Below, piece after piece: positions 771-17,041 of a DNA stretch of 21,094 bases. The translations under genes and the position numbers were made by a program. Positions within the stretch are counted from its first letter, which is position 1; each line of letters starts with the position of its first letter. Source of the DNA: a virus; IMG/VR virus record IMGVR_UViG_3300043015_000642, positions 1 to 21,094 of that record; one strand, given 5' to 3'. A model generated the notes under the pieces. The model made no database searches and was not told the origin of the DNA. It saw only the letters and a list, made by a program, of their open reading frames with translations.

Positions 771-1916
771 ATGTTAAGAGAAAATGTTATAGTAAGTGGT
801 TCGTTAGATGTACAAAGCGGGCAGTTCATAATACCAAGAGGACCGAGGGCGAATAGACCTTCGAGTCCTGAGGTTGGTTCTTTATATCTTGAAGAGTCAC
901 CAAGTGGTAGTTTTGTTGTAACATACACAGGATCATCTAACGATGATGGTGGATGGGAACCCGTAGGTTCACAGAACACGGATAGAACCGCATTCAAGTA
1001 TAGAAACATCATCAACTACTCATACTTAGCGGGTGGATATAAATCTTCATCTCCATGGAAGAATGTCCATAGGGCAACACACGCAACCGATCAAACGGTT
1101 CACATTGGTGAACTTATGGATTATCCCGCATCGTACACATCCGGTGCGTGTAGTAAATCCATATTATTTATATGGTCATCTAATAGTGATGGTGCATGGA
1201 AATCAGCAACACAAGTACACGGAACACATACAACAGGTATTCATATGGTTAATGAAACAGCATATGCTCACCAAACGAAATGGGATTTACTGAATGAAAG
1301 AGATGATCCGGGTACTTTATTTAAGGAGACGGAATTTGCATACATATTTGGTGGATCAGTGGCGGCAGTTGAAAAGTTTAACTTAACTAACGAGTCTATG
1401 TATACTACTTACTACCCAAGTGGAACGGGACCTTATACAACCACAACAACATCTATTACGAGTACCCTTGGTGCTTCGGGATTTTCGGATGAGAATTATG
1501 GTTATGGATATGGTTCTGAGAGTGGTAATAAATGTCACTTTGCAACCGATACTTTCGAAACAAGAGCATCATCATGGGCATCAAGTGGACAACAGAAAGG
1601 GATTAGTTCTAAAGTGGGTAAAGGGTACTGTGGTAATGAAGGTACCTACCAAGGAGGATACAACCTTAGAAGATGGGATGCATTTACTGAAACGAATATT
1701 GGTAACGTACCTAAACCAAGACCTAATTGTGGGGAAGAGAACTTCTCCATGGGACAAGACTTCCAATACATGTTAGCATGTTATGGGGATAGTCAACAAA
1801 ATAACGATAGTTGGAAATTTACATATTCAACCGACACGGGAGTTTTAAATCCCGCGGGGTTAGCACCGGGTGTTAATGCGGGTGCGTCCTCAGGTCATTG
1901 TGGTTGGAGAAATTAA
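771..1916 (+). CDS. Tandem virion-type paralog A (putative fibre tip or adhesin)
   Basis: First of three consecutive homologous genes (381 residues). The N-terminal region has the ENVIVSGSLDV strand, then RPSSPEVGSLYLEE and a YTGSSNDDGGWEPV segment, a style seen in phage fibre N-terminal domains. The body holds blocks shared with the next two genes: YSYLAGGYKSSSPWKNVH (83-100), HIGELMDYPASYTSGAC, a kelch-like AYIFGGSVAAVEKFNLT, QQKGISSKVGKGY, GYNLRRWD, GEENFSMGQD and a C-terminal SSGHCGWRN. Cysteines in TSGAC and GHCGWR are kept in all three copies and might pair. This copy has extra cysteines (NKCHF, GYCGNE, PNCGEE, LACYG). I recall SSPWKNV-type structural proteins from marine T4-like phages, but could not search. 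AAAGGAAAA before the ATG is one of the few plausible ribosome sites here. Receptor binding is inferred from position. Confidence 0.7.
   Translation: MLRENVIVSGSLDVQSGQFIIPRGPRANRPSSPEVGSLYLEESPSGSFVVTYTGSSNDDGGWEPVGSQNTDRTAFKYRNIINYSYLAGGYKSSSPWKNVHRATHATDQTVHIGELMDYPASYTSGACSKSILFIWSSNSDGAWKSATQVHGTHTTGIHMVNETAYAHQTKWDLLNERDDPGTLFKETEFAYIFGGSVAAVEKFNLTNESMYTTYYPSGTGPYTTTTTSITSTLGASGFSDENYGYGYGSESGNKCHFATDTFETRASSWASSGQQKGISSKVGKGYCGNEGTYQGGYNLRRWDAFTETNIGNVPKPRPNCGEENFSMGQDFQYMLACYGDSQQNNDSWKFTYSTDTGVLNPAGLAPGVNAGASSGHCGWRN
1020..1063 (+). repeat. 44-nt exact direct repeat, copy 1 (in paralog A)
   Basis: These 44 bases, coding for SYLAGGYKSSSPWKN, recur without a mismatch at 2181-2224 in paralog B. 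The next base on each side differs. Paralog C encodes nearly the same peptide with several synonymous changes, so protein constraint alone does not explain the identity. A recent gene conversion or recombination tract between A and B is the simplest reading. Confidence 0.85.
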
Positions 1917-1928
1917 GTATTTATAGAT

Positions 1929-3041
1929 ATGTTATTCGAAAATTTAGAAATAAGTGGATCATTAAGAGGAGAAGGTAACGACTTTAAAATGCCGAAAGGT
2001 GCGAAAGGAGATCGACCATCATCACCTGAAACAGGATCACTCTATTTAGAGGAAGCCACATCAGGTAGTTTCCTTATGGTATATACAGGTATTTCTAATA
2101 ATGATAGTGGTTGGGAAAGAGTTTCACACCAATCGAATTTCGGGAAGACGGCATTTAAATATAGACATGTAATTGCCTATTCATACTTAGCGGGTGGATA
2201 TAAATCTTCATCTCCATGGAAGAACGCACACAAGACCGTTAATGCCACAGATCAAACTTCACACATTGGTGAATTATTAGACTACCCAGCATCTTATACT
2301 TCAGGAGCATGTAGTCGATTTACATTTTTTATGTGGTCTGTAAATGATGATGGTGCTTGGAAGAGTGCGTCTAACATCCATGGAACATATACATCAGCAA
2401 TCAATATGTTTAACGACACTAATCTTGCTCATGATGCGAAGTTCGATACTAATATTGCAAGAAGTGATTTAGGTACGATGTTTAAAGAACAAGAATACGC
2501 CTACCTATTTAGTGGTGGGTCTGCAACGGTAGAGATATTTGATTTAACTAATGAAAGTTTGATGACACTATATACGTTATCAACTATAAACGGTAGTGAT
2601 GGAGGGAGTGCGTTCTCAGATGAACATTATGGTTATGGATGGACCTCGAGTTCGGGGGTTAAACTAAACTTTGCAACAGAAACATTTGCAACATCACCTC
2701 ATTGGTCAGCCCATTCACAACAAAAGGGTATCTCATCAAAATTAGGTAAAGGTTATGCGGGAAATGAAGGTTCATATTCAGGAGGATATAACCTAAGAAG
2801 ATGGAGTAATCAAACAGATACTAACCTTGGTAATGTGGCTAAACCCGATGGTAACTGTGGTGAAGAAAACTTTACTATGGGTCAGGATTGGCAATATATG
2901 TTAGGTAATTATAATGGTGCGCAAAATAATAATAGTTGGAAATTCACATATGCGACCGATACGGGTGTACTAAACCCTTCAGGTTTATCACCGGGAGTTA
3001 ACGCTGGTACATCATCAGGTCATTGTGGTTGGAGAGATTAA
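1929..3041 (+). CDS. Tandem virion-type paralog B (putative fibre tip or adhesin)
   Basis: Second of the three tandem genes (370 residues), 12 bases after A and 10 before C. It keeps the same order of blocks: ENLEISGSLRG, RPSSPETGSLYLEEATSGSF, a YTGISNNDSGWERV segment, YSYLAGGYKSSSPWKNAH, HIGELLDYPASYTSGAC, kelch-like AYLFSGGSATVEIFDLT, FSDEHYGYG, QQKGISSKLGKGYAGNEG, GYNLRRWS, GEENFTMGQDWQYMLGNY, FTYATDTGVLNPSGLSPGVN and GHCGWRD. By eye well over half of aligned residues agree with A and C. Differences concentrate between the blocks, around residues 150-180 and 205-245, as expected for exposed loops on a conserved scaffold. No ribosome site is evident before the ATG. Role as a receptor-binding or decoration protein is inferred; no enzyme motif is seen. 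Confidence 0.7.
   Translation: MLFENLEISGSLRGEGNDFKMPKGAKGDRPSSPETGSLYLEEATSGSFLMVYTGISNNDSGWERVSHQSNFGKTAFKYRHVIAYSYLAGGYKSSSPWKNAHKTVNATDQTSHIGELLDYPASYTSGACSRFTFFMWSVNDDGAWKSASNIHGTYTSAINMFNDTNLAHDAKFDTNIARSDLGTMFKEQEYAYLFSGGSATVEIFDLTNESLMTLYTLSTINGSDGGSAFSDEHYGYGWTSSSGVKLNFATETFATSPHWSAHSQQKGISSKLGKGYAGNEGSYSGGYNLRRWSNQTDTNLGNVAKPDGNCGEENFTMGQDWQYMLGNYNGAQNNNSWKFTYATDTGVLNPSGLSPGVNAGTSSGHCGWRD
2181..2224 (+). repeat. 44-nt exact direct repeat, copy 2 (in paralog B)
   Basis: Second copy of the exact 44-base match to 1020-1063. It sits at the homologous codons of paralog B. The homologous stretch of paralog C, starting near 3303, has several silent substitutions. Confidence 0.85.
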
Positions 3042-3051
3042 AATTTAAGAT

Positions 3052-4167
3052 ATGATATACGAAAACATGTCCGTTAGTGGATCGTTAAAGGTGGATAAGG
3101 TCACTGCAAGACCTCCGAAAGGTTCTGCTGCGAATAGACCCACGAATCCACTCTCAGGATCTATGTATTTAGAGACATCTGATGTGCATACGAGTTATTT
3201 GATGATATATACGGGTGTAAGTAATATCGACGGAGGATGGGAAAGAGTTGCTGCACAACAAAATATGGCGACAGGTTTTAAATTTAGACAAATCATCAAC
3301 TACTCTTACATAGCCGGTGGATATAAGAGTTCGTCACCATGGAAGAATGTTCATAAATCAACTAACTCCACAGATCAAACATACCACATTGGTGAGTTAT
3401 TAGATTACCCGGCGAACTATACCTCAGGGGCGTGTAATCTTAGAATATTTTTTATGTGGTCGGTGAATACAGATGGTGCCCATAAAGGACCAACGTCCAT
3501 ACATAGTACCACCACATCGGCGGTTAATATGTTCACAGATACCAATTACGCACACCAATCACAACATGATATACAATATACAAGATCGGATTGTGGTACT
3601 GTTCATAAAGAACATGATTTTGCATGGATCTTTGGTGGTAATAGAACTGAGGTGGATAAGTTTAACTTAAGTAGTGAAACAAGAATATTAAACTACGGTG
3701 TGACTTCGATTAGTAGTGGTGGGGGTGTAAGTGCATTCTCAGATGAGAATAATGGTTATATACACTCCGATGGTGGTAATAGAAAAATGAATTTTACCAC
3801 AGAAACCATTAGTACCTCCTCTACTGCATGGGCAGCACACGGACAACAAAAAGGTATTTCATCTAAAGTATCAAAAGGTTATGCGGGTAATGAAGGTTCA
3901 TACAATGGCGGTTATAACCTAAGAAGGTGGGATTTAACTACCGACACCAATGTGGGTAATATTGCTAAGATCCAAGGAAACACAGGTGAAGAGAACTTCA
4001 CTATGGGACAAGATCATCAGTATATGTTAGGTAACTATAATGGTGTTCAGAATAATGACACTTGGAAATTATTTTATTATACTGACACGGGTATTTTTAA
4101 CCCAACAGGTTTACAACCCGCGGTTAATGGTGGAACATCTTCAGGACACTGTGGGTGGAGGGAATAA
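3052..4167 (+). CDS. Tandem virion-type paralog C (putative fibre tip or adhesin)
   Basis: Third and most diverged copy (371 residues). It carries the same scaffold: ENMSVSGSLKV, RPTNPLSGSMYLE, YTGVSNIDGGWERV, YSYIAGGYKSSSPWKNVH, HIGELLDYPANYTSGAC, kelch-like AWIFGGNRTEVDKFNLS, FSDENNGYI, QQKGISSKVSKGYAGNEG, GYNLRRWD, GEENFTMGQDHQYMLGNY and GHCGWRE. It lacks the extra cysteines of copy A and has its own in SDCGTVH. The N-terminal 30 residues differ most (KVTARPPKGSAANRP), which may reflect a different attachment partner. It ends the structural block: an 82-base gap with an inverted repeat and promoter candidate follows. Function is inferred from tandem position beside a fibre gene. Confidence 0.7.
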   Translation: MIYENMSVSGSLKVDKVTARPPKGSAANRPTNPLSGSMYLETSDVHTSYLMIYTGVSNIDGGWERVAAQQNMATGFKFRQIINYSYIAGGYKSSSPWKNVHKSTNSTDQTYHIGELLDYPANYTSGACNLRIFFMWSVNTDGAHKGPTSIHSTTTSAVNMFTDTNYAHQSQHDIQYTRSDCGTVHKEHDFAWIFGGNRTEVDKFNLSSETRILNYGVTSISSGGGVSAFSDENNGYIHSDGGNRKMNFTTETISTSSTAWAAHGQQKGISSKVSKGYAGNEGSYNGGYNLRRWDLTTDTNVGNIAKIQGNTGEENFTMGQDHQYMLGNYNGVQNNDTWKLFYYTDTGIFNPTGLQPAVNGGTSSGHCGWRE

Positions 4168-4249: not shown

Positions 4250-5014
4250 ATGTCAGAAGGTTATACCTACAGTAAAGAATCGGGATTAAAAGACGAAATG
4301 AGTAAAAAATTACTCGATATCGCAGAGGGGGTATCATTCGCACTTCCTAAGTATAAAGCGGATAATTTTGTCGGTGGGGCACAAATCACACCATACGCAA
4401 AATTAAAACAATGGTTACTTGAGTTAAGAGGTAGAGAAGACATTGTGGAACACTTAGAGTATACGGTTCGTAAACAAGAATTAGAGATACAAATACAAGA
4501 AGAAAGTAAAGAATTTTTAACCGACTCTAAAAGAAAACAATTGGTTGATCTAACTATTGCGGATATGAAGATCGACCTGAGAAAGTTCCAAAGAAACCTA
4601 AAAGATGCCCACATTGAAAGACAAGGTTTTATAGATCTAATTAAAGACTTCTTAGAGAGTGATGATGCGAAACTACCTGACGGTGGTAACCTGATTGATG
4701 TTATTGGTAATAAAGAATTAGAACATAAATACGAACACGAATATTGGACTGTTCGTATGGCTAAACAGGCGATGTTGGATATGGTTTCTTATGGTAGAAT
4801 TGGAACAGGTAATTTAGATTCGATTCTTATGATGTCACCTGACCAACAAAAGGATGTTTTATCACTTGCTTCATCTTACACAGTATTTATTGATAAGAAT
4901 ATTAATCAATTAATGTCGAACGCATCTGTAAATAACTTCTCCATTGAAGAATCATTGAGAAAACAATTAAAGTTGGGTGAGGCAGATAAACCTGATACTG
5001 AAAAATTATTATAA
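4250..5014 (+). CDS. Unrecognised phage protein, partly coiled coil (254 aa)
   Basis: I do not recognise the family with certainty. Residues about 60-130 are rich in E, K, L and Q with heptad-like spacing and are probably a long helix or coiled coil. The stretch around 165-205 (YWTVRMAKQAMLDMVSYGRIGTGNLDSILMMSPDQQ) is the most family-like part and recalls hypothetical proteins of marine T4-like phages, which is memory rather than evidence. There is no signal peptide, membrane segment or cysteine cluster. Its stop and the next ATG share one base (TAATG at 5012-5016), so the two are co-translated. Position after the virion genes suggests a structural or assembly role, unproven. Confidence 0.7.
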   Translation: MSEGYTYSKESGLKDEMSKKLLDIAEGVSFALPKYKADNFVGGAQITPYAKLKQWLLELRGREDIVEHLEYTVRKQELEIQIQEESKEFLTDSKRKQLVDLTIADMKIDLRKFQRNLKDAHIERQGFIDLIKDFLESDDAKLPDGGNLIDVIGNKELEHKYEHEYWTVRMAKQAMLDMVSYGRIGTGNLDSILMMSPDQQKDVLSLASSYTVFIDKNINQLMSNASVNNFSIEESLRKQLKLGEADKPDTEKLL

Positions 5015-5754
5015 TGAAACACATTCTTTTTAAAATGAGGGGGGAAGTTCCCGGATACATAAGAGTCATCGGTTCGTATATGAATTACTACTATGGTAGA
5101 ATTGAGGATGTATACGATGACATGAGATTACAACTTAATGAATTAAATGCGGTAGTTATCCCTGAGGAAGTTGGTAATGGTTATATTTTCGCCGACATAT
5201 ACTTAGATTATGTTAGTGTAAGAACTAATTCATCTATGATGGATGAGATTCCCGTCTTGGCACAATCTTCAGAGACTGAAGAAGAAAAAGTTAGGTACAC
5301 ATTGACCGAGAATGATAGATCTGCGGGTGTGGAATTTAACAAAGCCGTACTCTTAAAAGTTATCGCTGATAGATTTTCTGAAAGACATAAGGATCTTATG
5401 GTTGACACATCCAAACTCGAAAAAGATACGTGGGAAGAACAAAAAAGAGAAGCACTCGGATACCAATCAGACAATACGTACCCAACACCTGTTATTGATA
5501 TTTTATCTCAGGGAAGAAACATAGATAAATCGACATTCATTCAAAAGATTATTGATAACGTAAACACATACAATACCAAATTAGCCAACTTACTTTTAGA
5601 ACAACAACTATTAGAACAAAGAGTAAAGGATTGTGTGACCCTCGCCGACTGTCATAGACTTAAACATGAGAAATTTGGTGTTGCGATGAGTAAACAACAG
5701 AAGGAAGATGAGAATGTCGAATCTACACCACTTACACTGAAAATGGATTTCTAA
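5014..5754 (+). CDS. Unrecognised phage protein (246 aa)
   Basis: Starts in a one-base TAATG overlap with the previous gene. The N-terminal part (residues 1-75) is compact and mixed alpha/beta, with PGYIRVIGSYMNYYYGRIED. The centre (85-160) is acidic and charged. Residues about 165-215 (DKSTFIQKIIDNVNTYNTKL then LLLEQQLLEQRVKDC) look like a helix pair or coiled coil, and the C-terminus is charged. No known domain, signal or catalytic motif was found. The translational coupling suggests it partners the 254-residue protein. It is followed after 10 bases by the radical SAM gene, so transcription may run on into that cassette. Confidence 0.68.
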   Translation: MKHILFKMRGEVPGYIRVIGSYMNYYYGRIEDVYDDMRLQLNELNAVVIPEEVGNGYIFADIYLDYVSVRTNSSMMDEIPVLAQSSETEEEKVRYTLTENDRSAGVEFNKAVLLKVIADRFSERHKDLMVDTSKLEKDTWEEQKREALGYQSDNTYPTPVIDILSQGRNIDKSTFIQKIIDNVNTYNTKLANLLLEQQLLEQRVKDCVTLADCHRLKHEKFGVAMSKQQKEDENVESTPLTLKMDF

Positions 5755-5764
5755 AAATAAATAA

Positions 5765-6763
5765 ATGAATTTAGCAATAAATGGTACATGTGCTAAAGGT
5801 TGTTCATTTTGTTTTACCAAAGAAGACGCAAGGTTAAAACATACCCTTGGTGAAATGACAATAAAAAAGGTCGGGGAACTCCTCGACCATTTTGATGTTG
5901 AGGGTGCGGGTGAAGAAGTTACCATATTAGGTGGGGAACCAACACAACATTCAAATTTTACAGGTATTGTTGATTATATAATATCAAGAGGTCATAAGAT
6001 TAATTTAGTCAGTAATCTTTTATTTGGTAAAAGAACCTTAGACTACATCACATCTAACATTAGACATATAAGGTGGGTTCTACCTAACGGTGCGGAGTTG
6101 AATGAAAAGAATAGAATGAACCTATTCAAAAAGAATTACTTATCCCTCTATACTGCATACGCAAACACATGGACTTTTAGAGATAATGCGAGGTTATTTA
6201 TTGCAATTACTCTGTCGAGTGATTGGAAGGAAAGGAAGATGTTTGAGTATGTTAAATGGTTACACAGTGAATTGGGTGGTAGACTAAATGCAATTAGGTT
6301 AGGTGTTGACCTTACAGATACTTACATGGTTAATAATAAAGAGTTGGGTAGTGAAATCACTAAGATCTTAAAATTTGCCAAGTATAATAACATCCAAGTA
6401 GTTTCCGATTGTCAGATACCCCCATGTATGTGGGAAGGAAAAACCAAAGAGTCAATTATTGAAAACTCAATGGGGTTTGCAACTTTCAAAGTACCGGGTT
6501 ATGACACGATATGTGGTTTTATGCCCTTAGATATATTCCCTAATGGTAGTTCAATACATTGTTACCCTTTACAGGATAAATTAAAGATAGATAATGTCTT
6601 GAATATCAAAGGGGAAAATAGTATATTATCATTGAGAGATGAGTTCGATAAACTCTACGAAGAGAATCATAAAAATTATACCCTCCCAAAGGACTGTTTA
6701 GAATGTGTCTTCTACAAGACCGAGTGTAATGGGATATGTGGGGGATGTTTAGAAGGTGAGTAA
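5765..6763 (+). CDS. Radical SAM/SPASM domain protein
   Basis: 332 residues. C9-x3-C13-x2-C16 near the N-terminus is the radical SAM [4Fe-4S] motif and GGEPT (56-60) is the SAM-binding GGE motif. The C-terminus holds a full seven-cysteine SPASM pattern: C250-x10-G-x4-C266, then C311-x2-C314-x6-C321-x3-C325-x2-C328, which in the family binds two auxiliary [4Fe-4S] clusters. Established SPASM enzymes modify peptides or proteins (RiPP maturases, sulfatase-maturing enzymes); some act on small molecules. The protein is slightly shorter than many members, with the radical SAM motif almost at residue 1, so the usual N-terminal extension is absent. It overlaps the U32-type gene by 8 bases and the methyltransferase follows, forming a cassette. 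No RiPP precursor was recognised. The substrate is unknown; a virion or host-surface protein is conceivable. Confidence 0.9.
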   Translation: MNLAINGTCAKGCSFCFTKEDARLKHTLGEMTIKKVGELLDHFDVEGAGEEVTILGGEPTQHSNFTGIVDYIISRGHKINLVSNLLFGKRTLDYITSNIRHIRWVLPNGAELNEKNRMNLFKKNYLSLYTAYANTWTFRDNARLFIAITLSSDWKERKMFEYVKWLHSELGGRLNAIRLGVDLTDTYMVNNKELGSEITKILKFAKYNNIQVVSDCQIPPCMWEGKTKESIIENSMGFATFKVPGYDTICGFMPLDIFPNGSSIHCYPLQDKLKIDNVLNIKGENSILSLRDEFDKLYEENHKNYTLPKDCLECVFYKTECNGICGGCLEGE

Positions 6764-7796
6764 AATATTTTCAATACCGTTAAATCCGATGTTGACTGAA
6801 CAGGCGTTCAATCACATTTTTTATCCCTTTCTTGAAAAGAATAAGGAGTGGATATACGATATCTATTTTACATGTAGGATACCTCCTTTCACCCAAGATG
6901 CGATGGGTTCAGTTATACTACCTGAATTTGAAGATGCGGTATTCGAAAACGCAATGGTGATACAGGAACGTTTAGGGATACGAGTAAGCGCCACTTTCAA
7001 TAATTTTAATGTCTCTCCCAAATACGATAACTACAAACTCTTTGTAGATAACTTAAGACCACTTTATGAAAAAGGTTTAAGATCTATGACCATACCTCAT
7101 GGTCATTGGGTTGCAATGGGTTTGAAGAACGAGTTTCCGGAAATGGAAATAAAGAACACAATCTTAAGGAAAGTGGCCACCGCTCAGGACTTTTGGTATA
7201 ACGCAGAACAAGGTTTTGACTACATCAACGTAGATAGAATACTCATGAGGGATGAGGAGGAACTAAAGAATATTAGACGTGCTCAATTAATGTTCCAACA
7301 GAAACACGGTAGGTATGTAAAGATCGCCCTACTAACCAATGAAGGGTGTTTGGGTAGATGTCCTGTAATGGATGAACATTACTCTTATAATAACCTTAGA
7401 CAACCTAATGAGTTGCCTTACTTTCATCACGAGATTTCTAAAGTCACATGTGAGTATAAATGGGAAAACGAGATTGATGCATTTATGTTTAAGACCGCAA
7501 CAATCCCCCCATTCAAAGAAGAGTTTGATGAATTCCTAAACCACGTAGACGTATTTAAAATGCATGGTAGAGATAGTTTTGATAGATTAAACGAAACTAT
7601 GGAGATTGTGGAATCATATGTTGCGGGTAGAGAGGTGTTATCAGAAACATCTAAAACATATTTGGATGGTATTCCATTTGAAGAACTTAGGGGTTGGAGA
7701 AAGAAAATTAAGAAATGTAGGTTCCAATGTTGGGATTGTAATTACTGTGACATAGTTGCAGATCACAAGAAAAAGAAACTGTATGGATCTAATTAA
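6756..7796 (+). CDS. U32 peptidase-family-like Fe-S protein
   Basis: 346 residues. The start is GTG inside the end of the radical SAM gene (8-base overlap); the next in-frame ATG, codon 12, would remove the first barrel strand (IFSIPLNP). NEGCLGRCPVMDEHYSYN (195-212) with C198 and C202, C232 (VTCEYK) and VDVFKMHGRDS (264-274) match the layout of U32 proteins, whose GC..RC cysteines and K-x-x-GR segment are conserved. Characterised U32 members such as UbiU/UbiV and RlhA work in O2-independent hydroxylation of ubiquinone or rRNA and bind [4Fe-4S]. A second cluster, C321-x3-C325-x2-C328-x2-C331, sits at the C-terminus and is not part of the core as I know it. Redox or hydroxylation chemistry together with the SPASM enzyme is inferred; protease activity is less likely. 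Confidence 0.78.
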   Translation: MSKIFSIPLNPMLTEQAFNHIFYPFLEKNKEWIYDIYFTCRIPPFTQDAMGSVILPEFEDAVFENAMVIQERLGIRVSATFNNFNVSPKYDNYKLFVDNLRPLYEKGLRSMTIPHGHWVAMGLKNEFPEMEIKNTILRKVATAQDFWYNAEQGFDYINVDRILMRDEEELKNIRRAQLMFQQKHGRYVKIALLTNEGCLGRCPVMDEHYSYNNLRQPNELPYFHHEISKVTCEYKWENEIDAFMFKTATIPPFKEEFDEFLNHVDVFKMHGRDSFDRLNETMEIVESYVAGREVLSETSKTYLDGIPFEELRGWRKKIKKCRFQCWDCNYCDIVADHKKKKLYGSN

Positions 7797-8445
7797 ACAC
7801 ATTGACGATTCTATACATTGGGGAGAAAGAGAAGTCTCAAAACTCACTCAGGACATACTAAACATCCACGGGATTACAAGTAATAAAGTAAGGTCGTTTT
7901 TGAATAACATATGTTCAATAGGTGGGACCTATTTAGAGGTTGGTGTTTTTAGAGGATCAACTTTCTGTTCCGCAATATACGGGAATGATATTCACGCTAT
8001 CGGAATTGATAATTTTGCATCACCTAACCTTACTCCTATGGGGGTAAGTCAAAGATTAGCGTCCTATCTTAAACAGGGTCTCGATATACCACCACAAGAG
8101 GATTTTCTTAATAATGTTAAAAGATTCGGAAACCCCAAAAAATTAGATGTTTATAAAACAGACTACACAACCTTTGATTATACTCAACTACCCAAACTAA
8201 ATATTATTTTCTACGATGGTGACACTCGTTTTCATGATCAATATGTGGTACTTAAAAAGTTAGTTCCATTATTCTCAGATCAAACTATTCTAATAATGGA
8301 TGATTGGAATTGGAACAGTGGTGCGTTAGAGAGGGTTATAGAGGAAGGGGGTTTATACGTTACCCACAAAAGGGAGATTTTCACAAGTGGTGAAAACATG
8401 GATGACTTTTGGAATGGGTTAGGTATATTCTTAATTGAGTCTTGA
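7783..8445 (+). CDS. TylF-like class I SAM-dependent methyltransferase
   Basis: 220 residues from ATG 7783; an upstream TTG at 7756 would add nine residues and is less likely. The start overlaps the U32-type gene by 14 bases. TYLEVGVFRGST (49-60) is the SAM-binding motif I. HAIGIDNFAS follows as motif II, then IIFYDGDTRFHDQ and ILIMDDWNW, a pair of acidic motifs typical of TylF/Methyltransf_24-type O-methyltransferases, where the aspartates often bind a metal and guide sugar or hydroxyl methylation. In context it could methylate a hydroxyl created or exposed by the preceding Fe-S enzymes, or a sugar made by the glycosyltransferase operon downstream. The substrate is not shown by sequence. Its stop overlaps the -35 of the next promoter. 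Confidence 0.82.
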   Translation: MDLIKHIDDSIHWGEREVSKLTQDILNIHGITSNKVRSFLNNICSIGGTYLEVGVFRGSTFCSAIYGNDIHAIGIDNFASPNLTPMGVSQRLASYLKQGLDIPPQEDFLNNVKRFGNPKKLDVYKTDYTTFDYTQLPKLNIIFYDGDTRFHDQYVVLKKLVPLFSDQTILIMDDWNWNSGALERVIEEGGLYVTHKREIFTSGENMDDFWNGLGIFLIES

Positions 8446-8512: not shown

Positions 8513-9439
8513 ATGAAAAAACAAAGAACACCATCATTTGGGTTGGTGAAATCGTTGGGTACAATCATGAGGTTTGTAACTAACAAAGCAATGTTAATTT
8601 TATTTTTGGTGGTTTTGAGTATACCGAACGTGTATGGTCAATATTCAGGACGAGCCCTAAACAATGGACAACAAGACAGTACAGAGGTTAAGAACCTTAA
8701 AGAAGTCGTTGTCACCGCAAGAAGGTACTCACAATTCGAATTGGTTGGTGAAAACAATCAACCGGCATGGACTTTAGTGAGAAAATTCCCTTCAACAAGA
8801 ACTTACATTATGGTCCCGAAAGGTACGGTGATGTATGAGAAATGGTTTGATATGAGATCCCCAAGGGGAGGTGATCCTACCGAAGTTAGAATGAGAGATG
8901 AGTTTGCCTTTGGTCTTGCAAATAGATTAGAATTAGATTTATATCTACACACAGTTTACAAATCAGGGGGATATGAGTCATCTTTTGGTTTTAGAGGTTT
9001 CTCATGGGAGATCCGATATGCCCTTGCAGAATGGGGTAAGATATGGGGTAACCCGACACTATATTTCGAACACAAACTATTAGATGGTAAGTACCAAGGT
9101 ATTGAACCTAAATTACTTTTGGGTGATAGAGTTGGACAACGAGGTATTTGGGGTGTAAACTTAATCTATGAAGCGTACACTGCACCTACACGGGTGGATC
9201 AGAAAAGAGAATATGCGTATACCGCATCTTACGGTCAAATCATAAATGACGACCTAACTATTGGTGTCTCTAATATGTTTAGACACAACGATGTTGATGG
9301 TTCTAATGAATGGTACATTGGACCCGCGGTTCAGTATAGATTTAATGGTAACGCATACCTAAATTTCGAGTTGTTACCGGGGTTAAATGAGGATGCTAAA
9401 CTTTATAGGAACACAATCATATTTGGATGGAGATTTTAA
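8513..9439 (+). CDS. Outer-membrane beta-barrel protein with TonB-box-like segment
   Basis: 308 residues from ATG 8513; an in-frame TTG at 8435 lies upstream of the predicted transcript start. A second ATG at 8567 (Met19) would give a more classical signal peptide. Residues 20-43 form a Sec signal peptide (MRFVTNKA, a hydrophobic core, then NVYGQ as a type I site). The mature N-terminus has NLKEVVVTARR (61-71), close to the TonB box of Bacteroidota TonB-dependent receptors, yet no plug domain follows. About 215 residues of alternating strands (FAFGLANRLELDLYLHTVYK, YFEHKLLDG, YIGPAVQYRF) end in WRF, the terminal aromatic of barrel proteins. It overlaps the permease gene by 13 bases. It may be a porin for permease substrates, or a decoy that ties up TonB or blocks rival phages. 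Function is inferred. Confidence 0.75.
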   Translation: MKKQRTPSFGLVKSLGTIMRFVTNKAMLILFLVVLSIPNVYGQYSGRALNNGQQDSTEVKNLKEVVVTARRYSQFELVGENNQPAWTLVRKFPSTRTYIMVPKGTVMYEKWFDMRSPRGGDPTEVRMRDEFAFGLANRLELDLYLHTVYKSGGYESSFGFRGFSWEIRYALAEWGKIWGNPTLYFEHKLLDGKYQGIEPKLLLGDRVGQRGIWGVNLIYEAYTAPTRVDQKREYAYTASYGQIINDDLTIGVSNMFRHNDVDGSNEWYIGPAVQYRFNGNAYLNFELLPGLNEDAKLYRNTIIFGWRF

Positions 9440-10431
9440 TTAAAGGACAGCATTTTTTAATATATCTAACATTTATCATGTTCGTGACGGGTATTCTTAA
9501 AGACAAAGGATACCTGTCCGATGTATTCCGTTGGATTGCAAGAAATGTGAAGTCAAAGAAAATGGTAGTCTTTTTCGTATCTCTATTTGGAGGAGTACTA
9601 CCAATACCGGGGAGAGTTGCACTATCTGCAAGTATGTTGAATTCAATAGCACCTATAGATAGAAAAAAGAGAAAGAAGTTTGGTATCATAGATTACTTGG
9701 CAACACACCATTACTATCTGTGGTCACCTCTTGAGAAAACTGTAATCATTCCTATGGCGGTTATCGGGTTTACTTATAAGGAGTTCATGGGTTTAATATG
9801 GCCACTACTTCTCATTAGCGTTCTTTATATTGCATATTACATCATGACATTAAAGGACGATGAGATTGATTTAGAGATAACAGATGAACCTACAGATTGG
9901 AGGAATATCGTATTCGTTGTTATACCTTTCTTAATTACCATTTTGGTATCTTGTTTTACGGATTATTATTTCTTTGCATTTTTCGTCTTCACATTATACC
10001 TAACCCAATACTCCAACAGTTGGAAAAAACTATATGGATATGTGAATGGTGAATTAATTATCATAGTCGGTTTGGTTATTATATTAGGTAACATTGCAAA
10101 CTATTACTACGATGATATCGAAAATTATATCCGACTATACACAGAACCCGAACACATACTTGTGGTTGCGGTTTTAGGTTTCCTTTCTTCATTCTTATTG
10201 GGATCATCCGCTAAGTATGCGAGTATTGTGAGTTTATTAACTGTTGTGTTCGGTGTTGAATATTTTGTTTTATTCTTCACTTTAGAATATTCAGGATATT
10301 TAATATCACCCTCACATAAATGTTTACCCATTGGTCAGAAATATTTTCACACAGGTTTTATGACTTACTTAAAGGCATTAATCATATGGATAGGATTTAT
10401 GGTGACTTATGGTATTATAACAGTGATTTAG
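9427..10431 (+). CDS. DUF401-like inner-membrane permease
   Basis: 334 residues with about nine to ten hydrophobic segments (roughly 9-25, 46-62, 106-136, 160-192, 209-224, 243-258, 265-286, 315-333) and short charged loops. GGVLPIPGRVALSA (55-68) and SGYLISPSHKCL (289-300) are the two half-site motifs expected of DUF401, a family related by fold to anion or dicarboxylate permeases. The pair of re-entrant-like motifs suggests an inverted repeat transporter. The substrate is unknown. The ATG lies within the last codons of the outer-membrane gene, so the two are translated together, which is what an outer/inner membrane uptake or export pair would need. A membrane permease of this size is unusual cargo for a phage. 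Confidence 0.75.
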   Translation: MEILIKGQHFLIYLTFIMFVTGILKDKGYLSDVFRWIARNVKSKKMVVFFVSLFGGVLPIPGRVALSASMLNSIAPIDRKKRKKFGIIDYLATHHYYLWSPLEKTVIIPMAVIGFTYKEFMGLIWPLLLISVLYIAYYIMTLKDDEIDLEITDEPTDWRNIVFVVIPFLITILVSCFTDYYFFAFFVFTLYLTQYSNSWKKLYGYVNGELIIIVGLVIILGNIANYYYDDIENYIRLYTEPEHILVVAVLGFLSSFLLGSSAKYASIVSLLTVVFGVEYFVLFFTLEYSGYLISPSHKCLPIGQKYFHTGFMTYLKALIIWIGFMVTYGIITVI

Positions 10432-10478: not shown

Positions 10479-10925
10479 ATGTCTACAAAATTAACGATCG
10501 ATCAAATTTTGCAGCTTGATGCTGAAATTAACGGGTTCACCAACCCTCAAACAGGTGACGTAGTCTATGAAGGTTTCGTTAAACAACCACTATCAATTCT
10601 ACTCAAGTATGAATTAACTGAATTATCTAACACCCTAAAAGAGGAAAGAGAAAAGGTTGATTCATTAAGAAATGAGTTAATTGAAAAGTATGGTGAAAGT
10701 AACGAAGATGGTAGTATTCAAATCAGTCCGACCATTGAAGAGAAAAAGGGTAAGAAAACTGAAACAGTAAGAAACCCTAAGTATGTGGAGTTCGTTGAAG
10801 AATACAACAAGTTACTTCAAAAAGAAATCGAGGTCTCTCACCCTGAGATTACTAAAGAAGACCTTAAAGATGCGGGTAAAACCAAAGATCAATACAATAT
10901 ATTATTTAAATTGGTTACAGGTTAA
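10479..10925 (+). CDS. Unrecognised charged phage protein (148 aa)
   Basis: Not recognised with certainty. Residues 1-60 include PLSILLKYELTELSNTLKEE, a helix that leads into a charged coiled coil (60-75, EREKVDSLRNELIEKYGE), then an acidic loop with DGSIQI, and a second helical section with YVEFVEEYNKLLQKEIEV. The pattern of two helices around a YGE-DG turn resembles small phage proteins annotated DUF1617 or similar, which is only a resemblance. It has its own promoter with a very short leader. Its stop shares TTAA with the stop of the convergent glycosyltransferase gene, leaving no space for a terminator. Confidence 0.68.
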   Translation: MSTKLTIDQILQLDAEINGFTNPQTGDVVYEGFVKQPLSILLKYELTELSNTLKEEREKVDSLRNELIEKYGESNEDGSIQISPTIEEKKGKKTETVRNPKYVEFVEEYNKLLQKEIEVSHPEITKEDLKDAGKTKDQYNILFKLVTG

Positions 10926-12019
10926 ACCTTATTTCTGATTTCAATCAACAAATTTCCGATTTGATATTCCCCTACTTCGTAGTGTGGGATTGATAATCGG
11001 ATTTTGTTTATAGTATACATATCCTCATCGGTCATGGGGTATGTTTCGTACACCATTACATCGACCATTTCAGGTAAAACAAATTTAGATCTTATATCAT
11101 AATTTGTATTCTGTTGTTCGTTTTTGATGTAGTCTTCAGGTACCTTACCAAGATTAATCTTATCGAAGTAAGGTTCGAGATTGTAAAGTTTACTATCATT
11201 TAGTGTGGTAAGACCCATGTTAAAAGTCTTATAGGTGAATATCTCATCCTCCCAATATCTAAGTTCATTGAACACGGGAATAGGTATACCCCACTTACGT
11301 ATGAAGTTTCTTATGTTTCTGTGCTCACTCAACCTACTTTCATCGGAGCGTAACTCCCTACTTGTTTTAGACACGAAGTGATAGACTACAGCACACTCTG
11401 TAGTTTTAAGGTTATACCCCTTTAGTTTTGCTCTAATTAGGAAGTCATCATCTTCACAAAAGAAGGGATCGAAAGTAAATCCATCGAATAACCCCACATC
11501 CATAAAGACCGACTTATAACCTGACATGAAAAATGTACCACCATCAACTAATACATCATTATGTTTCACCCGATCAACATACTCATTAAACATTGGGTAA
11601 TTGAAATCAAAAAACGATCTACCAAGATCTAACAATACCTTACCGGGTCTTTTATGTCCCTTAAATATTGGGGGTTCAATTGTGGTGTAAGTTAAAAGAG
11701 TCTTTTCATCAATTAGACGAGATAGGTTTTCTAAAAAGTTCTGACCAATAACCATATCATTATGGATTAGAACTAATTTTTCAGTATCTACTAATTTGAT
11801 GGCGGAGTTGTAATTGTCAGAAAAGGTTAGTTTATCATCGTCATGTATAAATGAAAGGTAATCATCCTCTAACGACTGTAACCATTCTAACGTACCATCA
11901 GTTGAACCACCACTACTTATGACCATTGGTGCTTCGGGGTATATATCTCGTATTCTATTATAACAATCTTTTGTGTAGTCTAAATTATTGTAGACTGCAA
12001 GTACTAATGATATATCCAT
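10922..12019 (-). CDS. GT2-type glycosyltransferase with C-terminal extension
   Basis: 365 residues; last gene of the minus-strand glycosylation operon. MDISLVLAVYNNLDYTKDC is the opening strand and helix of a GT-A fold, SSGGSTDGT (35-43) is the nucleotide-sugar loop in the place of the usual D-x-S-x-D, and HND (86-88) is the DxD-type metal site. FCEDDDFLIRAKLKGY (187-202) gives the catalytic ED motif and H214 a possible further metal ligand. About 130 residues beyond the core (DEIFTYKTFNMG onward) are unassigned and might bind acceptor or partners. The start is two bases after the stop of the preceding GT gene. Donor and acceptor cannot be read from sequence. Confidence 0.85.
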   Translation of the reverse strand: MDISLVLAVYNNLDYTKDCYNRIRDIYPEAPMVISSGGSTDGTLEWLQSLEDDYLSFIHDDDKLTFSDNYNSAIKLVDTEKLVLIHNDMVIGQNFLENLSRLIDEKTLLTYTTIEPPIFKGHKRPGKVLLDLGRSFFDFNYPMFNEYVDRVKHNDVLVDGGTFFMSGYKSVFMDVGLFDGFTFDPFFCEDDDFLIRAKLKGYNLKTTECAVVYHFVSKTSRELRSDESRLSEHRNIRNFIRKWGIPIPVFNELRYWEDEIFTYKTFNMGLTTLNDSKLYNLEPYFDKINLGKVPEDYIKNEQQNTNYDIRSKFVLPEMVDVMVYETYPMTDEDMYTINKIRLSIPHYEVGEYQIGNLLIEIRNKV

Positions 12020-12021
12020 AA

Positions 12022-12651
12022 TTATGATTGGAGGTCGTCGTATAGTTTATTTTGTCTCTCCTGTCTTTCGATGGTTTTAGGGTGGATTAGAGAGTAGATC
12101 TCATCCTCAGGTAGGTTGGTGTAGGTATTGAAGTTAACTAACCTCTCATGCACCTTACCGTACCATCTTATTCTACCTTCTTTCTTCCATATACGAGTTT
12201 GGTAATCAGGGAAGTTAACCCAACCTTTTTTATTGGTCCTCCAACCCCACTTTTCCACATGTTCTTCAGTTAGTCCATCAACAGTATTAACTCTCGGAAC
12301 TAAAAACACCTCATTCTTAGGGTTGACCAATATAATCTCAGGTAAGACCCTAATTAAGTTAGGGTGTGGTATTTCATCTGCATCTATTTGGAATATGTAA
12401 TCACCTCTACAGTAATCAATTAAATTATTTTTCCATTCACCGAAATGACCGTCGAAATAACCCCTCCACATTTGGAAGTTCGGTAATTTATTATACCCGA
12501 CCAACCAATCAGCAATTTCTTTGGAACCGTTCTTTTGGTCAAAAAGAACCACAATCTCATCTATCGGTCTTTTGTTCTCCAATAAGAACTTTACGAGTCT
12601 TTGGATTTCCTCAAACTCATTACATACGGTTATTGCGTAACTAATTTTCAT
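12022..12651 (-). CDS. Small GT2-type glycosyltransferase
   Basis: 209 residues, near the minimum for a GT-A domain. KISYAITVCNEFEEIQRLV starts the fold, DQKNGSKE is the donor loop and FQIDADEIP (87-95) contains the D90-x-D92 metal site. The following VPRVNTVDGL, WGWRTNKKGW, YQTRIWKK and WYGKVHERLV resemble LPS-core or SunS-like transferases, where H in KVHE is often conserved. No membrane anchor is present, so it acts in the cytosol or at the membrane face with partners. Its ATG overlaps the epimerase stop by one base (TAATG on the minus strand). The acceptor is unknown. Confidence 0.83.
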   Translation of the reverse strand: MKISYAITVCNEFEEIQRLVKFLLENKRPIDEIVVLFDQKNGSKEIADWLVGYNKLPNFQMWRGYFDGHFGEWKNNLIDYCRGDYIFQIDADEIPHPNLIRVLPEIILVNPKNEVFLVPRVNTVDGLTEEHVEKWGWRTNKKGWVNFPDYQTRIWKKEGRIRWYGKVHERLVNFNTYTNLPEDEIYSLIHPKTIERQERQNKLYDDLQS

Positions 12652-13499
12652 TATAGACTTAAAATATAATCTCTTAATTTGTCTTTAGGTGACCAACCAA
12701 GTCTTTGTAGTGTGTCGTCATTCTCTCTACGAGTTTCGAGATAATTTCCGTTTTGGTTTGGTAAGTTAATCTTTTCTAAATCACCGAATCTCTCTTTAAA
12801 CATCTCAAATACTTCGTTTATTGAATAATTCATACCTGTACCAAGTTCCCACGCTTCATTGTGAGACTCGTTACCCATACCAATCCTAACTAAACCATCT
12901 ACAATATCATCTACGTGGGTAAAGTCTCTACGTTGTTCACCGTCTGAGACAATGGTGATTGGTTTACCTGTTTTGATCTGATGTCTCCAAATCCCGATTA
13001 CCGCGGCCCACTTACCATCAACCAATTCGTTTGGTCCGTAGACATTGTAAAAACGAGCAATCTCGAAGTCACACAAATAAGTTTTCCTATAAAGTCTGAA
13101 AATATCTTCACCGAGTTTTTTGTATGTTGCATAAGGTGAATCTTCGGGGTTGTGCCATTGGGATGATGAACCTGCGTAAACCACTTTAACTTTATGGAAT
13201 TTAGCCCACTCGGCTACGATCTGACAACACTGAGTATTAGACCTAAATGTCTCAACGGGATTATCAAATGATGGTTGTATTCTTGATAATGCAGACAAGT
13301 GGAAACAAAGATCAAATGAACCGTTTAGTTCAAATATGTTTTCCACGTCTGTATAGATATAAGTACAACCCTCCACCTCATATTCTTTTAAACCTGTGGA
13401 TAGGTTATCAATTGATGTGACTGTGTGACCCTCACTAATTAATCTCTTAATTAAATTACTCCCTATAAATCCATTACCACCTGTAACTAATATTTTCAT
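12651..13499 (-). CDS. NAD-dependent nucleotide-sugar epimerase/dehydratase (extended SDR)
   Basis: 282 residues. The N-terminal GGNGFIG (7-13) in MKILVTGGNGFIGSNLI is the NAD-binding glycine motif, SIDNLSTG carries the acidic residue that prefers NAD, and Y123-x3-K127 with the serines at 111-113 forms the catalytic triad. RFYNVYGPNE and RRDFTHVDDIVDGLVR are standard extended-SDR motifs of GalE/WbpP-like 4-epimerases and related dehydratases. It is shorter than typical GalE (about 330), so part of the substrate domain is trimmed. It probably makes the sugar donor used by the four neighbouring transferases. It overlaps the upstream GT4 gene by four bases (ATGA). Which sugar is not determinable here. 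Confidence 0.88.
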   Translation of the reverse strand: MKILVTGGNGFIGSNLIKRLISEGHTVTSIDNLSTGLKEYEVEGCTYIYTDVENIFELNGSFDLCFHLSALSRIQPSFDNPVETFRSNTQCCQIVAEWAKFHKVKVVYAGSSSQWHNPEDSPYATYKKLGEDIFRLYRKTYLCDFEIARFYNVYGPNELVDGKWAAVIGIWRHQIKTGKPITIVSDGEQRRDFTHVDDIVDGLVRIGMGNESHNEAWELGTGMNYSINEVFEMFKERFGDLEKINLPNQNGNYLETRRENDDTLQRLGWSPKDKLRDYILSL

Positions 13500-14764
13500 T
13501 CTTTTTCAACCTTCTTTAATTCGGGTAAAACCAATTTTGTTTTTGTTGGTTTTATCTCCTCTTTTATCGATAAACCTTCAAAAATCATTTTTAAATCTTC
13601 TGTGGTTTTCTCAAGTGAGAAGGATTTTATATTGTCCTCTCTTAATTCTTCCGATCTCTCTAAGAAATCATCGTATTCTTCTCTTACAACTTTTAAAACT
13701 TCGACAACCTCGTTGTAGTTGGCGGTGAACCATTTCGAACTTTTCATTATGAAATCATCACTTGCACTTTCATGTACTTCAGTCAACTTACCACCCAAAA
13801 GAACCGCCTTGTTCATTGGTAGGAAGTCCTTATGTCCTGACCAATTTGAGGCGATGACAGGTTTACCTGACATGGAGAATTCTAATAATGGTCTACCAAA
13901 ACCTTCACCCTTTGTTAATGTTACCATTGTCTTTACCTTAGGGTGATTATACAGATCATTCATTTCCTTATCCGTTAATTGACCGAAAAGTAGGTATATG
14001 GATGGTGGGTTAGAATAAGACTGTGTAATCTGTTGAATTTTTTTTCTGAAGTATTCCCTTTGTTTTATAGAGAAAGTAGCTCCTGAGGTCTTTAAAATCA
14101 ATGCAGGACGATCCTCACCCTCTTTAAAAGACTCACAGAAACATTTAATCAACATACCAACGTCTTTTCTGTCCTGACCGATATCACCTTTTAACCAATG
14201 ACCAACAAAAAGGAATGCAAAATCCTCTTCAATATTTAACTCAAGATCCGATTCCGTTTTATAGTAGGTAGATAGATCAACACCCTCATGTAAAATTTCT
14301 ATGGGTGTGGTTATCCTATGTTGTTTGATTAATTTGCCTGTTACTTTATCGGTTTCATTGTAAACGGTTTGAAGTAAAACATCACGAGAAAAAGTGGATG
14401 TTGTAATTACTTTGTCCATTCTATTAATCCCATCTACCCACGATTTAGGTGCTGCTGTTGTCTCGATACCAGCGGTGATACCTATGTTATATTTTCCTTT
14501 TCTTTGGAATTCGTTTGGTACGGTGACCTGAACATAAATTTCGGGTTGTTCATCTAATGAAGTAACAATACTTGATTCAATCCATTGATGGAACAAATCG
14601 TTTTCAGGATCTAATGCAGTCATTGGAGTATTCCCCCAATTACAACTATCTATTTTAATATCGAATAAATCTAAATCGTATAATGATTTTAGGACATCCC
14701 TTGAATGTGATCCGTAACCACTTAGTGTTTTAATCGGTCCTCTAAATAATAGTGTTCTCTTCAT
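13496..14764 (-). CDS. GT4-family glycosyltransferase (GT-B fold)
   Basis: 422 residues. The C-terminal donor domain has EGFGRPLLE (287-295), the E-x7-E motif of retaining GT4 enzymes, followed by FSMSGKPVIASNWSGHKDFL. The N-terminal acceptor domain starts RTLLFRGPIKTLSGYGSHSRD, with a glycine-rich loop, and includes ITAGIETTAAPKSW. LFVGHWLKGDIGQDRKD marks the inter-domain link. The final 60 residues are charged, with a lysine-rich tail (EEIKPTKTKLVLPELKKVEKE). The start overlaps the previous stop by one base and its stop overlaps the epimerase start by four, so the genes are translationally coupled. Specificity is unknown. Confidence 0.87.
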   Translation of the reverse strand: MKRTLLFRGPIKTLSGYGSHSRDVLKSLYDLDLFDIKIDSCNWGNTPMTALDPENDLFHQWIESSIVTSLDEQPEIYVQVTVPNEFQRKGKYNIGITAGIETTAAPKSWVDGINRMDKVITTSTFSRDVLLQTVYNETDKVTGKLIKQHRITTPIEILHEGVDLSTYYKTESDLELNIEEDFAFLFVGHWLKGDIGQDRKDVGMLIKCFCESFKEGEDRPALILKTSGATFSIKQREYFRKKIQQITQSYSNPPSIYLLFGQLTDKEMNDLYNHPKVKTMVTLTKGEGFGRPLLEFSMSGKPVIASNWSGHKDFLPMNKAVLLGGKLTEVHESASDDFIMKSSKWFTANYNEVVEVLKVVREEYDDFLERSEELREDNIKSFSLEKTTEDLKMIFEGLSIKEEIKPTKTKLVLPELKKVEKE

Positions 14765-16140
14765 TATGTTATTTTATATAAATCAAAATTATTTTTAGGT
14801 TCCCACTTATTAAGTGCGGTTTCAATACCTTTAACCATAGACTCACACATAACTTCACTTGAGAAGTTTTTAATCATGTATTCCCTACCTGAAAGTCCTA
14901 TTTGTTTTCTTTTATCTCTACCCATCTTATGCATTTTTCTAAGTTGGGAAACCACATCATAGTGGTTGATACGATCATCAAAAATATAAGGGGTTGAAGG
15001 AGAACCATTTAATGTTATAGATTTTGGCCAAACAGGTAGAACCCAACTACCCCATGTTAAATTCTTAGGTAGTTTTTGTTCATCATGAAGTGATCCTATT
15101 TTAATGTAATCTTTTTCTTTGATCAATTTTCCGTTCGTCTTAAAACCACATTGATCTTGTAGACCACCGGTAACATTTAAAATTATTGGTGTCCCTGACA
15201 TGACCGACTCGGCGGTTGTTAAACCGAAACCTTCGTTGTTTGCAATGTTAATTGTACAATCAACCATATTATAGATTCTATTTAACTTCTCTTGATCGAA
15301 TTTGTCATTTGTAAATTTCACATCATAGTCAGGACATAGTTCATTCACCACAGCAACTAAGTCAGTACCATTCTTATCTACTGACGCAGTGTGCATCAAC
15401 AACAAACATTTATCTGACTTATCCTTAGATAATGTGTCACAGAACATTTTATAGGAGTATATAACATCCGCCGGTTGTTTCCTCTTAATGTTTCTGTTGT
15501 TATAGAAAAGTATGAAGTCATATTCTTTATCGCCGTGGATATACTTCCTCATTTCCTCATCCTCACCTTCAAGAGGTTTGAAGACGTTTTTGTTGATGCC
15601 ATGAGGGACATAAGATATCTGCCAATCCTTTAGTTGATTATGTGTAGTTTCCCTATTGGTCTTACCAACCCTATGTACGATACCGTAGGTTTGTTTAGAT
15701 ATACAACCTAACCAATCACAAGATTCATAATAATCTCTATTACAATAAGGATCAGGTAAATCATCCCATATGTGGTAATAGAATATAGGTACTCTCTGTC
15801 TTATCTCATGTTCATTATCATACAACCACTGCCAGTAGTGTGGGTCAGTAAAATGTAATATCGCATCAGGTTTTTCACTATCAATAAGTTCTCTTAACCT
15901 TACTATATTCCCATAACCGTTACTCGGGTATATTTTAACATTGGCGTCTTTAATACCTGTCTTCTCCCTAACATCAGCGTTAAGGTCAACTACCTTTCCA
16001 TACTCAGGGTGTTTTATTGCGGCACCTAATTGAACCCAATCAAATTTGTCAACTGTTCCAATTACAATTTCACGAGACATCGTTGCCACTCCCGATGTCA
16101 TTCTCATATCATCAGATAGTAGTAATATCTTCTTCTTCAT
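14764..16140 (-). CDS. GT4-family glycosyltransferase (GT-B fold)
   Basis: 458 residues from ATG 16140; the TTG one codon upstream is less likely. The opening KKKILLLSDDMRMTSGVATM is the first strand and acceptor loop of a GT-B fold. ILHFTDPHYWQWL and PIFYYHIWDDLPDPY are distinctive aromatic motifs of the acceptor domain. VPHGINKNVF is the linker, and NEGFGLTTAE (303-312) with E304 and E312 is the E-x7-E donor site, followed by SVMSGTPIILNVTGGLQDQ. It differs clearly from the second GT4 gene, so this is a pair of distinct enzymes rather than a recent duplicate. The preceding gene ends three bases before the start. Donor and acceptor are not evident; host glycan, virion or DNA are all possible targets. 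Confidence 0.87.
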   Translation of the reverse strand: MKKKILLLSDDMRMTSGVATMSREIVIGTVDKFDWVQLGAAIKHPEYGKVVDLNADVREKTGIKDANVKIYPSNGYGNIVRLRELIDSEKPDAILHFTDPHYWQWLYDNEHEIRQRVPIFYYHIWDDLPDPYCNRDYYESCDWLGCISKQTYGIVHRVGKTNRETTHNQLKDWQISYVPHGINKNVFKPLEGEDEEMRKYIHGDKEYDFILFYNNRNIKRKQPADVIYSYKMFCDTLSKDKSDKCLLLMHTASVDKNGTDLVAVVNELCPDYDVKFTNDKFDQEKLNRIYNMVDCTINIANNEGFGLTTAESVMSGTPIILNVTGGLQDQCGFKTNGKLIKEKDYIKIGSLHDEQKLPKNLTWGSWVLPVWPKSITLNGSPSTPYIFDDRINHYDVVSQLRKMHKMGRDKRKQIGLSGREYMIKNFSSEVMCESMVKGIETALNKWEPKNNFDLYKIT

Positions 16141-16143
16141 CAA

Positions 16144-16593: not shown

Positions 16594-16625
16594 TTTGGTT
16601 TATCAAAAAAAATATTTTATCTTTG
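16594..16625 (+). promoter_or_regulatory. Bacteroidota-type promoter candidate before 16664
   Basis: TTTG (16594-16597) and TATCTTTG (16618-16625) with 20 bases between match the -33 TTTG / -7 TAnnTTTG consensus of Bacteroidota primary sigma factor. It would start transcription near 16632, about 32 bases before ATG 16664. AT-richness makes chance matches likely. Confidence 0.42.
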
Positions 16626-16663: not shown

Positions 16664-17041
16664 ATGAGCGAAAAACTCTATGTAAGAAAAGTTGAGAGGT
16701 ATACTCAATGGGAGGCGTCTACTCCTGTGGTGGTAGATATCGAGAAACTCAGAAAGTGTGAACCACCTTATGAAGGCAATTCACATGAAGAACTTTTGGA
16801 ATACCTCCAAGAGAACGTATACAACAATTACGATTGGTACGAAAATGACACTAACAAAGAAGTATACGGTGAAGATGATGCATTTAACTTATCGTTGGAA
16901 GAGTCCGATTCAGAAGTTTACTCAGATAGTCGAGAAAAGTTTGAGGATTCGTGGCTTGAAGTGGGTGTACCTAATGAAGAGTACAGAAAAGTTGGTAGAT
17001 TTGAATCTAAGGCAGATAACATGCCACGTAACGATTGGTAA
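16664..17041 (+). CDS. Unrecognised acidic protein (125 aa)
   Basis: No family recognised. 32 of 125 residues are D or E against 15 K or R, so it is strongly acidic, with many tyrosines and tryptophans (YDWYENDTNKEVYGEDD). The N-terminal 30 residues (KLYVRKVERYTQWEASTPVV) are more ordinary and probably fold as beta strands. First gene of a short operon that ends at the terminator near 17800. Small acidic proteins of this kind are frequent among phage early genes; a DNA mimic or inhibitor is one possibility without direct support. Confidence 0.65.
   Translation: MSEKLYVRKVERYTQWEASTPVVVDIEKLRKCEPPYEGNSHEELLEYLQENVYNNYDWYENDTNKEVYGEDDAFNLSLEESDSEVYSDSREKFEDSWLEVGVPNEEYRKVGRFESKADNMPRNDW

Follow-up and report, generated by a model that had tools for sequence, protein, structure and literature searches.

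The window analysed here, an IMG/VR virus record of 21,094 bases, carries a phage module in which three Kelch-type fibre genes and two small genes are followed by genes for a radical-SAM enzyme, a U32-like protein and a methyltransferase. The reading that we favour, with a probability of roughly 0.45, is a tail-fibre maturation cassette, by which the phage would hydroxylate and then O-methylate the fibre protein that it encodes, the clade of the window adding a radical step. The module and its downstream neighbours comprise the following genes.

771..1916, plus strand: Kelch-type fibre protein, paralogue 1 (phrog_1417, E = 1.7e-43; homologue of cyanophage GC351)
1929..3041, plus strand: Kelch-type fibre protein, paralogue 2 (AlphaFold model with a Kelch propeller match; fibre-type N-terminus)
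3052..4167, plus strand: Kelch-type fibre protein, paralogue 3 (60% identity to paralogue 2)
4250..5014, plus strand: module protein, phrog_1409, equivalent to cyanophage GC353 (E = 1.9e-45; all-or-none with the pair)
5014..5754, plus strand: module protein, phrog_1604, equivalent to cyanophage GC352 (E = 2.4e-26; all-or-none with the pair)
5765..6763, plus strand: radical-SAM enzyme with SPASM-like C-terminal cysteines (PF04055, 39.4 bits; invariant cysteines)
6756..7796, plus strand: U32-superfamily TIM-barrel protein, probable [4Fe-4S] hydroxylase (fold match to 5D88; hhalign; seven invariant cysteines)
7783..8445, plus strand, alternative TTG start at 7756: class I SAM methyltransferase (PF13578, 23.4 bits; phrog_1458)
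8567..9439, plus strand, start taken as ATG 8567: outer-membrane beta-barrel-like protein with signal peptide (PF13557, 20.7 bits, cut-off 22)
9427..10431, plus strand: DUF401-family inner-membrane permease (PF04165, 41.2 bits)

The first-pass annotation had placed three overlapping genes at 5765-8445, and the ORFs 5765-6763, 6756-7796 and 7756/7783-8445 bear this out; when the methyltransferase start is taken as ATG 7783, their successive overlaps are 8 and 14 bases.

Across a large family of aquatic phages, tail-fibre genes are always accompanied by the hydroxylase-like/methyltransferase pair. In a database of 50,697 GenBank phage records, GC351 (Kelch part), GC352, GC353 and GC354 (the U32-like protein) each matched 123 records, and every one of these sets, compared by counts and organism tallies, split identically into 77 Synechococcus, 38 Cyanophage and 8 Prochlorococcus names. 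Many of the 123 records are near-identical isolates, and those inspected cover at least seven genera; the carriers P-SSM4, Syn19, S-H25 and S-CAM4 are described isolates. A longer GC351 query matched 142 records, and among the matches listed the weaker ones covered the N-terminal part only. Cyanophage S-SM1 has none of GC351-354; its slot between GC347 and denV, which the module occupies in Syn19 and P-SSM4, contains two 2OG oxygenases along with other genes. Taken together, the all-or-none tallies and the S-SM1 slot indicate that the module behaves as a swappable fibre cassette.

All 80 close loci have the Kelch genes, phrog_1409, phrog_1604 and the radical-SAM, U32-like and methyltransferase genes in this order, as far as each contig extends. 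A wider survey covered 243 loci, with the radical-SAM gene present in 147 (19 non-redundant clusters) and absent from 96 (43 clusters). Its distribution follows the clade of the window exactly: the gene was found at 147 of 147 loci inside and at 0 of 96 outside, where searches by HMM or motif revealed no hidden copy, and no relatives of the protein were found among GenBank phages. Wherever it is present, phrog_1604 precedes it and the U32-like gene follows. Two single-sequence scans of viral contigs with the radical-SAM protein returned 80 and 32 loci, and the ones checked all had it at the same position. The U32-like and methyltransferase genes are adjacent at every clade locus whose contig continues. 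They are fused in 81 of the 96 loci lacking the radical-SAM gene, the remainder being mostly incomplete contigs with one split case (L245), and in 41 of the 43 non-redundant relatives outside the clade. The side-by-side search proposed by the first-pass annotation thus recovered the same three-gene order in 147 loci (19 non-redundant clusters), a recurrence far beyond chance. All three genes are under purifying selection, with dN/dS of about 0.01-0.1 for the radical-SAM and U32-like genes. Judged from these sequence patterns, the U32-like protein and the methyltransferase appear to form one functional pair, and the radical-SAM enzyme appears to be a lineage-specific third partner that was not in the ancestral pair.

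2OG oxygenase genes occur near 29 of the 43 non-redundant clusters outside the clade and near none of the 19 inside. Outside, at loci lacking the radical-SAM gene, 2OG oxygenases or halogenases often come after the pair. In L241 (8670-13037) and L243 (8632-10786), the fused U32-methyltransferase gene is directly followed by Trp-halogenase and 2OG-oxygenase genes, which in L241 stand ahead of a DUF401 permease. L233 (2-7307) has tandem U32 cassettes, with a 2OG oxygenase, a DUF401 gene and a Kelch gene between them.

No named phage system with this combination was found, as had been supposed, but the pair itself has already been catalogued without a function as cyanophage T4-GC 354/PHROG 1458. 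There the same pair stands beside the same Kelch-type, GC352 and GC353 genes (GC 351-353). The cyanophage version differs in that the pair is fused, the radical-SAM gene is absent, the order of GC352 and GC353 is swapped, 2OG oxygenases often adjoin and the annotation is only hypothetical. The cyanophage halogenase/2OG-oxygenase/methyltransferase clusters (PMC7824862) are also comparable, being composed of tailoring enzymes, and two relatives of the window cassette have Trp halogenases and 2OG oxygenases. Those clusters, however, were described as sugar or amino-acid metabolite clusters, whereas the core of the window cassette is a U32-methyltransferase pair tied to fibre genes.

The U32-like protein had no match in Pfam or NCBIfam, and a PDB sequence search gave nothing usable; structure and profile comparison were therefore used. 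PF01136 gave no match at E = 1 for any of 17 members, all of which thus lie below its cut-off. The AlphaFold model, built from a 32-sequence alignment with many invariant columns, is a TIM barrel (pLDDT 84, pTM 0.85), and its top PDB match is the U32 protein Mk0906 (5D88; E = 2.7e-7), at a modest TM of 0.46/0.62. By hhalign, its profile aligned to L285-L287 with 98.1% probability over 282 columns; these proteins exceed the PF01136 cut-off and also have the C-terminal four-cysteine set. Probability was 98.6% against a Desulfobacterota family, and the link to canonical U32 proteins was weak (74.7%). Seven cysteines are invariant in alignment A1 of 17 relatives (C198, C202, C232 and C321-X3-C325-X2-C328-X2-C331), and dN/dS of the gene is 0.012-0.023. 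We know of no hydroxylase in the U32 subfamily of this protein. The U32 proteins that have been characterised function in O2-independent hydroxylation, and the canonical hydroxylases have the cluster motif CX6CX15CX3/4C (PMC6747719, PMC11574389). This motif is absent from the U32-like protein (alignment A3), which shares with UbiU/UbiV, TrhP and RlhA the TIM-barrel fold, many cysteines and remote profile homology, but has CX3C...C and a C-terminal CX3CX2CX2C instead and falls below Pfam detection. The U32 motifs seen in this gene by the first-pass annotation therefore hold at the superfamily level, by fold and profiles, and not for the canonical cysteine spacing. The product of the second gene is best described as a divergent U32-superfamily protein that probably has an Fe-S cluster. 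The model also resembles the fold of a 'peptidase' of Escherichia phage OLB35 (BFVD A0A3G3MCS7; E = 9e-8), so that this may be another phage carrying a U32 protein.

The methyltransferase matched Methyltransf_24 (PF13578) at 23.4 bits, under the cut-off of 26.3, and the C-terminal half of phrog_1458 at 1.3e-31. Its motifs G-x3-G-x-T, FYDG, DDxN and WNG are invariant in a 33-sequence alignment, both SAM and acidic motifs being conserved, and outside them the sequence varies. The class I assignment made earlier is supported by these motifs in 33 relatives, but its TylF-like label is not, as the TylF model gave no match at E = 1.

The radical-SAM protein belongs to its superfamily by a PF04055 match of 39.4 bits (cut-off 29.5). 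Across 18 relatives, CX3CX2C (C9, C13, C16) is invariant, as are nine further, SPASM-like cysteines: C250-X10-G-X4-C266, C311-X2-C-X6-C-X3-C-X2-C328, C216 and C221. The SPASM pattern consists of CX9-15GX4C, then CX2CX5CX3C plus a last C; in the window protein, CX10GX4C is present and the second part reads CX2CX6CX3CX2C. The Pfam SPASM model (PF13186) had no match in the window record, so that the complete SPASM set reported in the first pass is better called SPASM-like. The enzyme resembles radical SAM/SPASM maturases (anSME, peptide maturases) in its CX3CX2C and its CX10GX4C...CX2CX6CX3CX2C tail, and differs from them in having no PDB relative at E = 0.01, no NCBIfam equivalog above cut-off and no precursor peptide gene within the cassette.

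Kelch paralogues 1 and 2 share 64% identity. The AlphaFold model of paralogue 2 (33 sequences; pLDDT 84) matched Kelch propellers in a Foldseek search of the PDB (E = 2e-14, TM 0.64/0.82), identifying the fold as Kelch. Its N-terminus has a P-x-G...RP..P..GS motif ahead of the propeller, which we take to be common in phage fibre proteins. The conserved C-terminus SSGHCGWR was considered as a radical-SAM target or modification mark and set aside, since other Kelch segments in the clade are equally conserved. The main text of PMC3037559 does not name GC351-354 among the virion proteins found by proteomics.

At least one full-length contig of the clade (the record of L061; E = 1e-63) has a T4-type major capsid gene, and no photosystem gene turned up in ten records. 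The clade is therefore probably T4-like and probably not a cyanophage lineage. From the style of the outer-membrane protein, the host might be guessed to be a member of the Bacteroidota. The divergent spacer ahead of the gene at 16664 contains TTTG-N20-TATCTTTG (16594-16625), a Bacteroidota-type promoter pattern; its single match in the whole window equals chance expectation, and it was discarded as evidence. An N6/N4 DNA methylase gene lies at 18462-19124 (PF01555, 28.0 bits; phrog_24333, E = 1e-57).

Bacterial relatives of the U32-like protein have mixed gene contexts. In L155 (1-4352), the relative is flanked by genes for an RTX-type repeat protein and a type I secretion ABC transporter. 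In the Syntrophaceae loci L156 (7589-13804) and L157 (917-7238), it comes first in a gene run that continues with a second cysteine-rich protein, an acetyltransferase, a membrane protein and the sulfate-activation enzymes CysD and CysNC; upstream in L156 are a sulfotransferase and a Glug-repeat protein. The second cysteine-rich protein was dropped as a candidate, since it shows a short motif match only. Neighbours of the Desulfobacterota relatives L290-L293 included no consistent partner, and the relative in L256 overlaps with the gene of a canonical U32 protein. L254-L256 and other Desulfobacterota share a family of about 365 residues with NEGCxxxCPFK...C-terminal four cysteines and no Pfam or NCBIfam model, which has weak matches in about one quarter of 193 genomes of the class.

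In tRNA modification, the U32 protein TrhP hydroxylates first and TrmR then O-methylates; some eukaryotes have TrmR joined in one protein to another hydroxylase, YceA/TrhO (PMC6599085). By analogy, the fusion of the U32-like protein with the methyltransferase and the TrhP-TrmR precedent suggest hydroxylation followed by O-methylation. The first-pass annotation had envisaged stepwise action of all three enzymes on a shared target; the fusion and the precedent support this well for the U32-like protein and the methyltransferase, but the radical-SAM enzyme stands outside the ancestral pair. Since it is the Kelch module that the pair tracks, and not the DUF401 permease, the likeliest substrate would be the Kelch protein or the two small proteins encoded with it. 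Of the virion or host molecule named earlier as the target, the virion is favoured, since the pair is all-or-none with the Kelch tail-fibre module. Supporting context is provided by two of three bacterial relatives, one beside the RTX-type protein and secretion transporter (L155) and one near the Glug-repeat protein (L156), and by the 2OG oxygenases or Trp halogenases that adjoin the module in other carriers.

From gene content, linkage, fusion, selection and predicted folds, we infer a substrate, a chemistry and an order of steps. The U32-like protein, with a [4Fe-4S] cluster, would hydroxylate a residue of the Kelch protein or of a small module protein without O2. The hydroxyl so formed would be O-methylated by the methyltransferase, which most relatives carry as a fusion with the U32-like protein, and in the clade of the window the radical-SAM enzyme would further alter the same protein, for example by oxidation, cross-linking or C-methylation. 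The modified fibre tip might then have altered stability or receptor binding, and the DUF401 permease and the outer-membrane protein would be neighbours of separate function. Points against this reading are the missing canonical U32 cysteine spacing, the lack of a known hydroxylase in the subfamily, the absence of GC351-354 from the virion proteins named in the main text of PMC3037559 and the constant DUF401 permease. The module genes may also be linked through joint inheritance at one locus, and not by enzymes acting on the Kelch protein.

The main rival assigns the enzymes to the synthesis or decoration of a small molecule or surface glycan, which the DUF401 permease and the outer-membrane protein would move, with the fibre genes as mere neighbours. 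It owes this rank to the permease, which is always downstream in the clade (43 of 43 loci with enough downstream sequence), and we consider it less likely than fibre maturation. The constant permease suggests a transported small molecule; it also adjoins the fused pair in cyanophage S-H25 and the pair in L233, L238, L240 and L241, and the outer-membrane-type gene that adjoins it in the window is a frequent neighbour (33 of 43 clade loci). Yet DUF401 occurs in only 9 phage records against 123 for the pair, which is always with the Kelch module, and in most cyanophages the pair occurs with no such permease gene. Sugar epimerase and glycosyltransferase genes downstream would fit a glycan, but this block (10922-16143, with a nucleotide-sugar epimerase) is on the minus strand and differs among relatives. 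The cyanophage halogenase/2OG-oxygenase/methyltransferase clusters, too, have been read as halogenated metabolite or capsule decoration (PMC7824862).

Modification of host or phage RNA, with tRNA or rRNA hydroxylated and then O-methylated as by TrhP and TrmR, is improbable. The characterised U32 hydroxylases named in PMC11574389 and PMC6747719 do all have RNA or quinones as substrates, and for tRNA a fusion of hydroxylase and methyltransferase (yceA-trmR) has been reported (PMC6599085), but the U32-like sequence is far from canonical U32 proteins and an RNA target would not explain the all-or-none link with a block-swapped Kelch fibre module. We give just as little credence to catalytically dead U32-like and methyltransferase proteins serving as fibre-assembly chaperones or virion parts. 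Their constant association with fibre genes and the variability of the methyltransferase beyond its motifs would suit such a role; the seven invariant cysteines, the many invariant columns, the invariant SAM-binding motifs and the low dN/dS of the U32-like gene speak against it. Least probable is a RiPP pathway in which the radical-SAM/SPASM enzyme, hydroxylase and methyltransferase mature a short signalling or toxic phage peptide. The SPASM-like cysteines agree with it, but most carriers of the pair have no radical-SAM enzyme, and the precursor peptide that the first-pass annotation had suggested looking for was not found in the cassette, where a 10-base gap after phrog_1604 and then overlaps up to the methyltransferase leave no room for its gene.

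In its full form, namely a dedicated phage Fe-S system that, after translation, hydroxylates the phage's own Kelch receptor-binding fibre protein and O-methylates it, and in one clade also rearranges it by radical chemistry, the fibre-maturation reading is put forward only tentatively. What emerges is a U32 subfamily that differs in its cysteine set and is covered by no Pfam or NCBIfam model; the unannotated GC 354 of many cultured cyanophages becomes an enzyme that can be tested, with a candidate substrate named. If true, the reading would represent the first case of U32-type chemistry in a virus and the first in which a U32 protein is known to act on a protein, and would link Fe-S hydroxylation to phage host recognition, suggesting that phages chemically finish their own host-binding proteins.
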